Shown: positions 951 to 62,790 of the stretch, piece by piece | How the letters are laid out: every line of letters begins with the position of its first letter | Numbering within the stretch: position 1 is the stretch's first letter | NCBI GenBank assembly: GCA_025936825.1 | Contig: JAICSO010000007.1 | Span: forward strand, 1-64,000 | Reading direction: 5' to 3' | Length of the DNA stretch: 64,000 nt | DNA from: Terriglobales bacterium | GTDB lineage: Bacteria > Acidobacteriota > Terriglobia > Terriglobales > Acidobacteriaceae | The notes under the pieces: generated by a model | Databases searched by the model: none | What the model saw: only the letters and a program-made list of their open reading frames with translations | What the model was told of the DNA's origin: nothing | Translations under genes and position numbers: made by a program

Positions 951-1229
951 TCAAATACCACCGGCGATCGACGGTACCAGTAGCACTTCGTCGCCATCTT
1001 TGAACGTGTAGCCCGCGCCGCCAAGGAAGCGGATGTCCTCTTCGTTCACGTAGACATTCAGGAAGCGGCGAATCTGGCCGTTCTCGTCGCGCAGATGTGC
1101 CGTCAGATCGGGGAATTTCGTACCGAGGTCGGTGAACAGTTCGTTCAGGTTGGCTGCCGAGCAGTTGACCTTGGCGGCGCCGCCAGTGTGGCGGCGAAGG
1201 GCGGAAGGAATTTGGACAGTGATGGTCAT
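951..1229 (-). CDS. MoaD/ThiS-family ubiquitin-like sulfur carrier with a GGI tail
   Basis: This 92-residue beta-grasp protein belongs to the MoaD/ThiS/CysO group. Family marks are the N-terminal ITVQIPSALRRHTGG strand, the central 'FPDLTAHLRDENGQIRRF' segment, the 'NVYVNEEDIRFL' strand, and the C-terminal 'DGDEVLLVPSIAGGI'. In these proteins the terminal GG is adenylated and turned into a thiocarboxylate that donates sulfide. Here one Ile follows the GG, so a protease would have to trim it first. The gene is the second of a minus-strand pair with the thrC-like gene, 131 bases downstream of it, and is separated from it by an inverted repeat array. The SAM riboswitch upstream of the pair suggests a methionine or cysteine sulfur role rather than molybdopterin or thiamine synthesis; this is inference. 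Confidence 0.85.
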   Translation of the reverse strand: MTITVQIPSALRRHTGGAAKVNCSAANLNELFTDLGTKFPDLTAHLRDENGQIRRFLNVYVNEEDIRFLGGAGYTFKDGDEVLLVPSIAGGI

Positions 1230-1260
1230 CTTTTAGTCGGGCGATCAGATCGTTTCAGAA

Positions 1261-1356
1261 TTGAATCATTGAATCATTGAGACATTGCATCATTGAAGAC
1301 TGTGTACTCGAGGTTTTTCAATGATTCAATGATCCGATGAATTCAATGATTCAATC
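1261..1356. repeat. Inverted word-repeat array (ATTGAATC type), copy 1
   Basis: The left arm repeats the word TTGAATCA/ATTGAATC several times. After a ~22-base centre, the right arm carries the complementary words (CAATGATT, GATTCAATGATCCGATGA). Each arm is a degenerate tandem array, so the pair can fold into a long hairpin with slippable register. It lies between the thrC-like gene and the sulfur-carrier gene. Related copies are at 12330-12407 and 62701-62790. The GATTCAATGATCCGATGA core is shared with the 62.7 kb copy. Confidence 0.85.
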
Positions 1357-1360
1357 GCGT

Positions 1361-2608
1361 TTATGCGCCTACAGCCACGGGAAGTTCGAATTCCCCTAAT
1401 AATCTCTCAAACTCTGCCAGCTTGGGTGCAATCGGCTGTTCCTGCTCGTACTCGTCTACGAGGACGTCGGTCGTCTTCAAGCCGTTACCGGTGATGCACA
1501 GAACCGTGGTCTCGTCGGGCAGAATGCGGTCGCTCTTGTAGAGCTTGCGCGCGCACCCAAGCGTCACACCGCCGGCGGTCTCGGTAAAGATGCCTTCCGT
1601 TTCAGCTAGCAGCTGAATCGAATCTACAATGTCTGGATCGGAAACGTCTTCTGACCAGCCGCCGCTGCCGGTGATTGTCTTAATCGCGTAGTGCCCGTCC
1701 GCCGGATTGCCGATCGCTAGCGATCGCGCGATCGTGTTCGGTTTCTGCGGATCAATATCCGCATTGCCCAGCTTCACGGCGGTCGAGATCGGCGAGCATC
1801 CGGTAGCCTGCGCGCCAAAGAACTTCACGTGCTTCGGTTCAACCACGCCGAGGTCGATCAACTCCTGAAACGCCTTCTTGATTTTCGTGATCAGCGATCC
1901 ACCAGCCATCGGGCAGACCACATTGTCCGGCAAGCGCCAGCCGAGTTGCTCTGCGATCTCGTAGCCAAAGGTCTTCGACCCTTCCGCGTAGTACGGGCGC
2001 AAATTTACGTTGACGAATCCCCACAGGTGCTCGTCGGCGATTTGCGAACACAGGCGGTTCACCTGGTCATAGCTGCCGGAGATGCGCACTAGTTTGGCGC
2101 CGAAGACCTGGGTACCTAGAATCTTTGCCGGCTCGAGGTCGGCGGGAATGAAAATCCAGCACTTGAATCCATTACGCGCAGCCTGGGCAGCCGTGGCATT
2201 CGCCAAGTTGCCCGTCGACGAGCAGGAAACGGTATCGAATCCAAATGACTTCGCATTTGCCAGCGCTACCGCAACCACGCGGTCCTTGAAGCTCAGCGTG
2301 GGCAGGCAGACGGCGTCATTCTTGATGTAGAGCTTCTTCGCTCCGATGCTGGAGGCGAGTCCATTGGCCTTGATCAGCGGCGTGAAGCCTACGGGCAGAG
2401 TCGGCTGGTAATGGTCAGGAAGGGGGAGGAGCGCCGAGTAGCGCCAAATGTTGGGAGGACCTTGAGCAATCTTCTCGCGCGTGAAGTCGGCGCGGATGGA
2501 GTCGTAATCGTAGAAGACTTCGAGCGGCGAGAAACAGTCTTCGCAGATCGACTTGGGCACGTTGCCCCAGCTCTTGTTGCACTCCCGACAGCGTAGTTCG
2601 TATCGCAT
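1361..2608 (-). CDS. thrC: Threonine synthase-like PLP enzyme under SAM riboswitch control
   Basis: This 415-residue fold-type II PLP enzyme is of the ThrC family with an N-terminal zinc ribbon (CxxC at residues 7-10 and 22-25). The Schiff-base lysine lies in LSFKDRV (about residue 108). The phosphate-binding and active-site loops SSTGNLANA and CPMAGGSL are present. Classic ThrC converts O-phosphohomoserine to threonine in the cytoplasm. The start chosen is the internal ATG giving MRYELRC, because the zinc ribbon begins there; an in-frame ATG 11 codons upstream is less likely. A SAM-I riboswitch and terminator precede the gene and a MoaD/ThiS-like gene follows it. This context is unusual for plain threonine synthesis and suggests a methionine-related reaction. 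Family assignment is firm; the exact reaction is open. Confidence 0.88.
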   Translation of the reverse strand: MRYELRCRECNKSWGNVPKSICEDCFSPLEVFYDYDSIRADFTREKIAQGPPNIWRYSALLPLPDHYQPTLPVGFTPLIKANGLASSIGAKKLYIKNDAVCLPTLSFKDRVVAVALANAKSFGFDTVSCSSTGNLANATAAQAARNGFKCWIFIPADLEPAKILGTQVFGAKLVRISGSYDQVNRLCSQIADEHLWGFVNVNLRPYYAEGSKTFGYEIAEQLGWRLPDNVVCPMAGGSLITKIKKAFQELIDLGVVEPKHVKFFGAQATGCSPISTAVKLGNADIDPQKPNTIARSLAIGNPADGHYAIKTITGSGGWSEDVSDPDIVDSIQLLAETEGIFTETAGGVTLGCARKLYKSDRILPDETTVLCITGNGLKTTDVLVDEYEQEQPIAPKLAEFERLLGEFELPVAVGA

Positions 2609-2641
2609 TGCCTTCCCGATCCGAGCGGCTCCCACGAACAT

Positions 2642-2700
2642 CTTCGCATCCTTCGCGTCCTTTGCGGTTAGAAGCCTTACCGCGAAGTTCGCAAAGCGTG
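2642..2700. repeat. Short inverted repeat of the CTTTGCGGTTA type
   Basis: The left arm reads TTCGCGTCCTTTGCGGTTA. The right arm, five bases later, carries TTACCGCGAAGTTCGCAAA, which is roughly complementary. The sequence sits in the leader between the riboswitch terminator and the thrC-like start codon. A related single arm appears near 5249-5275. It belongs to the same general class of intergenic palindromes as the other repeats in this window. Confidence 0.6.
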
Positions 2701-2714
2701 TAAGAAAATCAGCC

Positions 2715-2753
2715 TAAAAGACGAATCCTCTTTCCCCGGAATAGGAAAAGAGG
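2715..2753 (-). terminator. Intrinsic terminator of the SAM riboswitch expression platform
   Basis: On the minus strand a stem forms between CCTCTTTTCC and GGGGAAAGAGG with a short loop. It is followed by a moderately U-rich ATTCGTCTTTTA tract. It lies 33 bases after the aptamer and about 110 bases before the thrC-like start, as expected for transcription-attenuation control. The U-tract is imperfect. Confidence 0.7.
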
Positions 2754-2786
2754 CTCAGGAAGTGCTGAAAATTCGCGCACCCCGAA

Positions 2787-2901
2787 TCTCATGTTTCCCC
2801 GTCTTCCGGGTCGAGAGTTGGCACCTGACGGCCTAGATGTATGATCCGGGTCCGGTTGCCGTGGCGTCTTAGGGCTCGTCCCTCAGCCACTCTGCATGAA
2901 A
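2787..2901 (-). promoter_or_regulatory. SAM-I (S-box) riboswitch aptamer
   Basis: Read on the minus strand, the S-box landmarks occur in order. They are AGAGTGGCTGAGGGA, GCCCTAAGACGCCACGGCAACC, AGGTGCCAA, a CCCG-GAAGA-CGGG stem (P4), then GAAACATGAGA. P1 pairs TTTCATG with CATGAGA, P2 pairs GTGGC with GCCAC, and P3 pairs GGCAACC with GGTGCC. This is the canonical four-way S-adenosylmethionine aptamer, which turns genes off when SAM is abundant. It lies between a sigma-70-like promoter and a terminator hairpin ahead of the thrC-like gene. Confidence 0.93.
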
Positions 2902-2938
2902 TCCAAGGTCAGCCCCGAAGGGCAGACTGGTGAGTTAC

Positions 2939-2967
2939 ATGATACGAACCGGGGGCGGGATCGTCAA
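2939..2967 (-). promoter_or_regulatory. Sigma-70-type promoter of the riboswitch operon
   Basis: On the minus strand a TTGACG -35 hexamer and a TATCAT -10 hexamer are separated by exactly 17 bases. The predicted transcript would start about 30 bases before the SAM aptamer. Position and spacing fit well. Confidence 0.7.
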
Positions 2968-3073: not shown

Positions 3074-3832
3074 TCACAACCGGTTGATCAGCGACGCCAC
3101 GTACCCTGCCCCGAAGCCATTGTCGATGTTGACGACTGTGACGTTTGACGCGCAGGAGTTCATCATGCCGAGCAGGGCCGCCATCCCCTGGAACGCGGCG
3201 CCGTAGCCGACGCTGGTCGGAACCGCGATGACGGGTACGCCAACCAGGCCACCAACTACGCTGGGCAGAGCGCCTTCCATCCCGGCACACACCACGACAA
3301 CGCGTGACTTACTGATCGCCTCGCGATGCGCCAGCAGGCGGTGAATGCCGGCGACGCCGACGTCGTAAAGCCGGGCCACGTCATTCCCCATGAGTTCGGC
3401 CGTGACCACGGCTTCTTCTGCGACGGGAATGTCGCTGGTGCCCGCGGAAACCACGGTGATGAGTCCTTTGCCGTACTTCGCTTTGTCCTGCTCCAGGACG
3501 ATGGCTCGGGCCTCCTCCTTGTAGGTTGCGCGGCGAACCTTCTTTTTGACTGGCGCAAACTGCTCCCGAGTGGCGCGGGTGGCAAGCACGTTGGTCTTGT
3601 GCTGGGCCAGCTTGTCGAAAATTCCGGCCACCTGCGCCGGAGTTTTTCCCTGGCAGAAGATCACCTCCGGCATGCCCACGCGGATCGCGCGGTGATGATC
3701 AACCTTGGCGAATCCGAGATCCTCAAACGGAAGATGGCGCAGGCGCGAGACGGCGTCGTCGGGAGACAGTTCGCCGGAGCGGACTTGCTCGAACAACTTG
3801 CGGATGGAGTCGGCGTTCAAGGGAAAAAGCAT
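3074..3832 (-). CDS. larB: LarB: pyridinium-3,5-biscarboxylic acid mononucleotide synthase
   Basis: This 252-residue protein has a PurE-like C-terminal half. LarB carboxylates and hydrolyses nicotinic acid adenine dinucleotide in the first step of the nickel-pincer nucleotide cofactor used by lactate racemase and related LarA enzymes. Family signatures are the N-terminal [20 protein letters not shown], the [18 protein letters not shown] segment, the [19 protein letters not shown] glycine-rich loop and [12 protein letters not shown]. Length is typical. LarC, LarE and LarA, which complete and use the cofactor, are not in this window, so here it is an orphan. The ATG lacks a strong ribosome binding site. 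Confidence 0.93.
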
Positions 3833-3899: not shown

Positions 3900-3975
3900 A
3901 CTCGGGTCGTCGATGCCCCTATCCCAGCACTTACGTGCTGGGCTATTTTTGTTTCGTCGCTGCGCGACTGACGAA
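3900..3975. repeat. CCCAGCAC...GTGCTGGG hairpin repeat
   Basis: A perfect short palindrome, CCCAGCACTTACGTGCTGGG, is followed by CTATTTTTGTTTCGTCG, so it also looks like a rho-independent terminator on the plus strand. The same hairpin recurs in degenerate form in both units of the tandem duplication just downstream (4171-4190 and about 4473-4492). It has no obvious upstream plus-strand gene to terminate, because larB runs the other way. Confidence 0.6.
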
Positions 3976-12329: not shown

Positions 12330-12407
12330 TTGAATCATTGAATCATCGGCAAAACGGTGCGTACCGCGCTGCAATGATTCAATAACTAAATGACTCAATG
12401 ATTCAAT
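12330..12407. repeat. Inverted word-repeat array (ATTGAATC type), copy 2
   Basis: The left arm AAATTGAATCATTGAATCAT and the right arm GCAATGATTCAATAACTAAA plus TGACTCAATGATTCAATC surround a ~30-base centre. It sits between rpmH and rnpA, and its right arm contains the ATG proposed as the rnpA start. It is related to the arrays at 1261-1356 and 62701-62790. Confidence 0.82.
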
Positions 12408-62700: not shown

Positions 62701-62790
62701 TAAGTCATTGGATCATTGAAGTCAATGAACACCACGAGCGCACACGTTCTGAAATGATTCAATGATCCGATGACTCAGTGATTCAATTCT
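62701..62790. repeat. Inverted word-repeat array (ATTGAATC type), copy 3
   Basis: The left arm TAAGTCATTGGATCATTGAA plus GTCAATGA is complementary to the right arm AAATGATTCAATGATCCGAT plus GACTCAGTGATTCAATTC. The centre is ~25 bases. The GATTCAATGATCCGATGA core is identical to the one at 1321-1340. It lies between the dinB-like gene and lpxI. Confidence 0.85.

Follow-up and report, generated by a model that had tools for sequence, protein, structure and literature searches.

A predicted MetM/MetO operon in an acidobacterial genome: a threonine synthase-like enzyme and a sulfur carrier downstream of a SAM riboswitch

The DNA considered here, termed the window, comprises 64,000 nucleotides of contig JAICSO010000007.1 from a Terriglobales bacterium (assembly GCA_025936825.1), in which an S-adenosylmethionine (SAM) riboswitch of the S-box type is followed by a gene resembling threonine synthase (ThrC) and by a gene for a small sulfur carrier. 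Does the encoded enzyme make threonine, or does it make homocysteine with sulfur bound to the carrier? An earlier sequence-only reading of the locus had suggested that the enzyme combines O-phosphohomoserine with carrier-bound sulfide to make homocysteine, and had added that no ThrC-type enzyme was known in such a role. The suggestion gained support by analogy with MetM of Streptomyces albulus, and the additional statement is outdated, since the Streptomyces MetM of 2024 (Hasebe 2024) is a ThrC-like homocysteine synthase that converts O-phosphohomoserine, according to excerpts of PMC12172450. Based on the gene content, the riboswitch, the family placement, the conservation, the complementary distribution of MetX and MetA, and a second thrC in the genome, we consider it very probable that these genes form an acidobacterial MetM/MetO operon, predicted to make homocysteine with carrier-bound sulfur. 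It is most likely a further member of the Streptomyces MetM/MetO route and not a new pathway, and what may be new is the detail in this phylum.

The sequence-only reading had described a promoter, an S-box, a terminator, a ThrC-like gene and a MoaD/ThiS-like carrier gene on one strand, and all of these were confirmed on the reverse strand, the promoter and the terminator as consensus matches. The promoter-like site (TTGACG-17-TATCAT, positions 2939 to 2967) agrees with the consensus at 10 of 12 positions, which is no proof of function. The SAM-I (S-box) aptamer at 2786 to 2902 is complete (model positions 1-108 of 108) and scored 69.6 bits on RF00162 against a gathering score of 44.4 bits. Between the aptamer and the gene, a terminator-like stem-loop (2727 to 2753) has an 11-pair stem and a T-rich tail and also appears in the predicted fold of the leader, which was more stable than shuffled sequences (2640-2905, z -3.17). 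Promoter-like sites numbered three against a shuffle mean of 1.0 and terminator-like sites four against 1.7, both counts consisting of consensus matches alone.

The metM-like gene (1361 to 2641, reverse strand) encodes 426 amino acids and was assigned to the pyridoxal 5'-phosphate (PLP) enzymes of the ThrC type by family models, alignment, tree and fold. PF00291 (Pfam PALP) was the sole Pfam family matched at E-values up to 0.001; the protein thus lies outside PF01053, the Cys/Met PLP family of the partner enzyme in the Wolinella route. Threonine synthase models scored best (TIGR00260, 261.8 bits against a cut-off of 167.1), and the cysteine synthase model cysK gave 33.7 bits against a cut-off of 350.95. 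Since the plain thrC of the same genome also exceeded the TIGR00260 cut-off with 283 bits, this model cannot tell MetM from ThrC. Cysteines 18, 21, 33 and 36 of the metM-like protein are invariant in a 15-row alignment and presumably form a zinc ribbon, judging from what is generally known of such CxxC pairs; all four are present in six of 11 ThrC rows, and the fourth in eight. The homologues begin near residue 12, and translation may therefore start at the ATG at 2608 instead.

In the gene tree, which was built by a quick method and in which the long ThrC branches were flagged by the tree program, one branch with a Shimodaira-Hasegawa-like approximate likelihood ratio (SH-aLRT) of 100 separated 80 metM-like rows from the 11 ThrC rows; as the metM-like rows were chosen by similarity, the split is partly built in and shows coherence, not function. 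When 98 core metM rows were compared with ThrC, 32 positions were at least 90% conserved in the former and shared by no more than one of the 11 ThrC rows, two of them falling where five ThrC rows have gaps. The sequence-only reading had proposed such a comparison with authentic ThrC, and residues near the PLP lysine do differ: L116 and V122 flank K119, and together with R215, Y218 and T355 they are kept in 91-98 of the 98 core rows and are unlike the 11 ThrC rows. The predicted structure (mean predicted local distance difference test, pLDDT, 85.4) matched threonine synthases best, including the Arabidopsis enzyme (2c2b_A, Z 40.4, 2.5 Å over 379 residues), with 31-35% identity to bacterial chains among 6cgq, 2zsj, 1uim and 2d1f, a likeness that cannot demonstrate function. 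A sequence search of solved structures listed five ThrC sequences alone and no MetM. Neither the best 80 loci with a metM-like match in genome_contigs nor the plasmid collection (searched with E-value limits of 1e-30 and 1e-60, one result being the best 25 of 64 records) yielded a named Streptomyces MetM, and a Nonomuraea homologue (54.1% identity over 93%) and cyanobacterial sequences stand in for S. albulus MetM in the tree.

The metO-like gene (951 to 1229, reverse strand) encodes a 92-residue carrier that matched the Pfam ThiS family with 44.3 bits. Its C-terminus, SIAGG-I, extends one residue beyond Gly-Gly, a feature that the sequence-only reading had not mentioned. The nearest solved chains were 3dwg_C and 4n6e_B, the first labelled cfp10A and presumably M. 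tuberculosis CysO, the second labelled ThiS/MoaD family and presumably likewise a CysO protein. The two genes are 131 bp apart, and the interval is occupied by an array of 8-nt repeats with inverted repeats (1260 to 1355, repeat scan). From the gene order and the short metM-metO gaps in relatives, we infer that the two genes are co-transcribed. In the study of Hasebe (AEM 90:e01247-24), metO is likewise said to lie downstream of metM and to act as a thiocarboxylate.

Conservation in Acidobacteriota, which the sequence-only reading had proposed to look for, was found in a survey of 99 genomes of the phylum. The ThrC-type matches were bimodal: 25 genomes have one with 47-100% identity and at least 417 bits, and the remaining listed matches reach at most 37% identity and 236 bits. 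An S-box was detected in 38 genomes and lies upstream of the close homologue on the same strand in 15 of the 25 (within 400 nt in 14), so the association is more than chance; no low-identity ThrC stood within 90 kb of an S-box when the tables of the 99 genomes were compared by eye. A carrier gene adjoins the close homologue in 12 of the 25. In the fifteenth genome with an upstream S-box (G018, locus L182:560-4611), two genes separate the S-box from metM, the whole order being S-box, a ThiF-family activating enzyme (E1), a gene of the cysteine desulfurase family whose product exceeds its cut-off, metM and a metO ending at Gly-Gly.

The distribution of the acyl-homoserine enzymes points in the same direction. 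We called MetX strong at 215 bits or more, a line of our own, because the curated cut-off of 500 bits was passed by no genome and by no control. By this measure strong MetX occurs in 23 of the 99 genomes (two partial) and MetA in six. Strong MetX or MetA was found in none of the 19 genomes with an S-box or carrier at metM versus 29 of the 80 others (Fisher p 0.0013), further tests of metM gave p 0.0066 for MetX and 0.0008 for MetX or MetA, and in the family of the window eight metM genomes lack strong MetX while two without metM have it (p 0.022), all of these tests ignoring the relatedness of the genomes. MetX-like matches of 133-175 bits occur in further genomes, including one of the 25 (G091).

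The source genome itself (6.54 Mb, 141 contigs, completeness 99.67%), whose closest named relatives belong to Acidobacteriota, fits this picture. Two genes exceed the thrC cut-off, the metM-like gene of the window and, as the sequence-only reading had proposed to look for, a second, plain thrC, which lies on contig C140 beside the homoserine kinase gene thrB. The genome has no PF04204 match for MetA, and MetX is represented by weak TIGR01392 matches alone (118.8 and 90.3 bits); we set MetX aside as a route there, as both matches are at most 118.8 bits and the open reading frames look secreted, with a signal-peptide-like start by eye. The canonical acyl-homoserine route thus appears to be missing, as would be expected with MetM/MetO. 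The sole other S-box of the genome, also an addition to the sequence-only reading, precedes a gene for a NifS-like cysteine desulfurase (L027:5160-6571, reverse strand), with a stem between S-box and gene. This second S-box was not seen in seven other genomes of the genus, five of which are less than 90% complete and whose five S-boxes stand at metM, and its status as a genus trait is therefore unsupported.

Beyond the phylum, we surveyed the best 80 named loci in genome_contigs with a metM-like match, to which the counts per 80 loci refer; they come from Acidobacteriota, Cyanobacteriota, Nitrospirota, Nitrospinota, Armatimonadota, Omnitrophota and others. A carrier lies within 300 nt of metM or overlaps it in 70 of the 80 and within 1.6 kb in three more, and was not found nearby in seven. 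An S-box is present in 27 loci, directly in 25 of them, and Nonomuraea gerenzanensis has both S-box and carrier with metM. A plain ThrC gene stands near metM-metO in five loci (L121 was checked on TIGR00260, 327 bits), and ThrB follows S-box-metM in L114-L117, L114 being confirmed over the thrB cut-off. In various loci of other phyla, metM has homologues of E1, JAMM and CysM as neighbours, and NIL and TusA genes also occur near it in some of the 80.

An extension past Gly-Gly is not peculiar to the carrier of the window. Gly-Gly could be read in 73 carriers of the 80 loci: it is the end of the protein in 33 and is followed by 1-4 residues in 28, by 5-20 in eight and by more than 20 in four; reading frames were assigned mechanically, and a few of the long tails are therefore possibly misread. 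Going by record titles, cyanobacteria account for 29 of the 33 tail-less carriers, and by manual count 39 of 43 non-cyanobacterial carriers have a tail. Three carriers are fused after Gly-Gly to a Pfam NIL domain (L123:6627-7142, L153:5297-5812 and L170:5257-5772). In the phylum set, seven of 12 carriers are tailed and five tail-less, and a strong match to a JAMM peptidase was found in all seven genomes of the former and in three of the five of the latter, numbers too few to conclude from; of the other two tail-less genomes, G018 has no Prok-JAB match and G025 a weak one.

Based on these observations, we infer a course of events in which the reaction, the trimming of the carrier, the direction of the switch and the choice of the E1, JAMM peptidase and desulfurase serving MetO are all predictions. 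At low SAM, the S-box would let RNA polymerase pass the terminator, so that metM and metO are made. MetO would be translated with one residue past Gly-Gly, which a JAMM peptidase, probably that of the cysM-JAMM-cysO-E1 cluster in the source genome, would remove. An E1 of the MoeB/MoeZ type would then activate the C-terminal glycine, and sulfur from a cysteine desulfurase would give the MetO thiocarboxylate. Finally, in the active site of MetM, this thiocarboxylate would displace the phosphate of O-phosphohomoserine to give homocysteine and, from it, methionine. We also propose, tentatively and at somewhat less than even chances, that non-cyanobacterial MetO is mostly a pro-protein (fixed as far as Gly-Gly and then carrying 1 to about 80 more residues, with a NIL domain in three loci), that a JAMM peptidase gates its sulfur loading and can be dropped by tail-less lineages, and that SAM also controls sulfur loading in some acidobacteria, through E1 and desulfurase in G018 and through the desulfurase in the source genome. 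With a NIL domain fused to it, the carrier might be released only after a further check for a ligand.

Several observations weigh against the MetM/MetO reading. The placement with S. albulus MetM is indirect, via stand-ins. Among the 25 close homologues, 13 have no recognised adjacent carrier, and some of these lie beside genes that family models assign to homoserine dehydrogenase (L057, L060), homoserine kinase (L059) or semialdehyde dehydrogenase (L052); one genome of the 25 (G069), the sole overlap, has strong MetX with neither S-box nor carrier. Moreover, excerpts of PMC12172450 report that the Microcystis ThrC, with 51.6% identity to S. albulus MetM, both produced and deaminated threonine in vitro and in cells fell short of full MetM behaviour; a mixed role is therefore possible. 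The Microcystis result would suit a SAM-controlled second threonine synthase, or threonine synthase/deaminase, with the carrier serving another sulfur pathway, and so would the TIGR00260 score, the best fold matches and a basal eight-row subclade of the tree that has no adjacent carriers and of which three members stand beside hom or thrB. We nevertheless regard such a role as quite unlikely, because a plain thrC adjoins thrB in the genome, the clade is repeatedly accompanied by carrier and SAM riboswitch across phyla, MetX and MetA are complementary to it, the five residues named above are unlike ThrC, and an S-box is found even in three of the eight basal rows.

A further point against the MetM/MetO reading concerns routes elsewhere in the genome, which the sequence-only reading had named as metX/metY or metB/metC. 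The acyl-homoserine part is missing or weak as described, but three strong Cys/Met PLP enzymes are present, leaving room for transsulfuration: a cystathionine beta-lyase on C113, over two cystathionine beta-lyase cut-offs, a gamma-lyase/synthase-like enzyme on C34 and an enzyme on C140 whose gene lies next to thrC. MetM/MetO would then be accessory, and homocysteine would come mostly from a plant-like cystathionine gamma-synthase acting on O-phosphohomoserine, followed by the beta-lyase. We think this improbable, since the C34 gene follows a CysK gene (over its cut-off), O-phosphohomoserine is a hypothetical substrate of the C140 enzyme, and both S-boxes of the genome stand at metM and the desulfurase and none at the Cys/Met genes, in addition to the lack of MetA and the weak, secreted-looking MetX. 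The carrier might also chiefly feed CysM for cysteine synthesis and stand beside metM incidentally, as its nearest solved chains are presumably CysO proteins and the genome encodes a CysM-like enzyme and a JAMM peptidase. Yet these lie in a cluster of their own on C140 (L024:5726-10642) with a MoeB-type E1 whose end is rhodanese-like and another CysO-like carrier, ending GGRC and 37% identical to that of the window; with a carrier at metM in 70 of the 80 loci as well, this explanation is very unlikely.

Taken as a MetM/MetO operon, the locus can be compared with known systems. With Streptomyces MetM/MetO it shares a ThrC-like enzyme, predicted here to use O-phosphohomoserine, a SAM riboswitch upstream and a metO-type carrier, and it differs in the acidobacterial host, the residue after Gly-Gly and the second S-box at a cysteine desulfurase. 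As excerpted, PMC12172450 places S. albulus MetM under a SAM riboswitch and reports MetM homologues in cyanobacteria; in Microcystis, which lacks the riboswitch, a metO-like carrier gene adjoins the ThrC gene. A literature search under the names MetM and MetO gave nothing beyond this paper. Compared with authentic ThrC (6cgq, 2zsj, 1uim, 2d1f, 2c2b), the fold is shared, and the separate clade, the changed residues near the PLP lysine, the SAM riboswitch and the carrier partner are different. In Mycobacterium, Mec is a JAMM-type protease. Excerpts of PMC3227635 describe, for the CysM/CysO/Mec/MoeZ system, a thiocarboxylate carrier, an E1 with a rhodanese domain, the Mec protease and a phosphorylated amino-acid substrate, all of which resemble the scheme proposed here. 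The PLP partner of our carrier is ThrC-like, not CysM-like, and the separate CysM/CysO-like set of the source genome is a further difference. The Wolinella route (Krishnamoorthy and Begley 2011) reportedly leads from a carrier thiocarboxylate to methionine, with the carrier trimmed by a JAMM protein, both features shared with our scheme; its enzyme is said to use O-acetylhomoserine and to belong to the Cys/Met family, which has a different PLP fold.

As the present protein exceeds the TIGR00260 cut-off, MetM genes will probably be annotated as threonine synthase and the methionine route of their owners overlooked; MetM is distinguished from ThrC by the riboswitch, the carrier and a few residues (L116, V122, T355). 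The complementarity with MetX and MetA in Acidobacteriota suggests that one homocysteine route replaces another. For specialists, the tailed carriers, which offer a testable connection of JAMM peptidases to methionine supply, and the self-contained operon of G018 should be of most value.

Some minor observations were also made. ThiS-family genes occur at four places in the source genome, and one ThiS-like carrier (L033:1495-1710, reverse strand) likewise extends a residue beyond its glycines (GGGS). The Nonomuraea record NZ_LT559118.1 (11.85 Mb) is entered as a plasmid in PLSDB, and its size suggests a chromosome. The gene next to the riboswitch on its upstream side, in the same orientation, is larB (3074-3832), for nickel pincer cofactor biosynthesis, and an Acido-Lenti-1 RNA was detected on the forward strand at 3923-3969 (49.6 bits). 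The 8-nt repeats between metM and metO are of the ATTGAATC type, with similar clusters at 12334-12402 and 62704-62766 of the window, and a 15-base repeat pattern has nine matches in the window against 0.12 expected.

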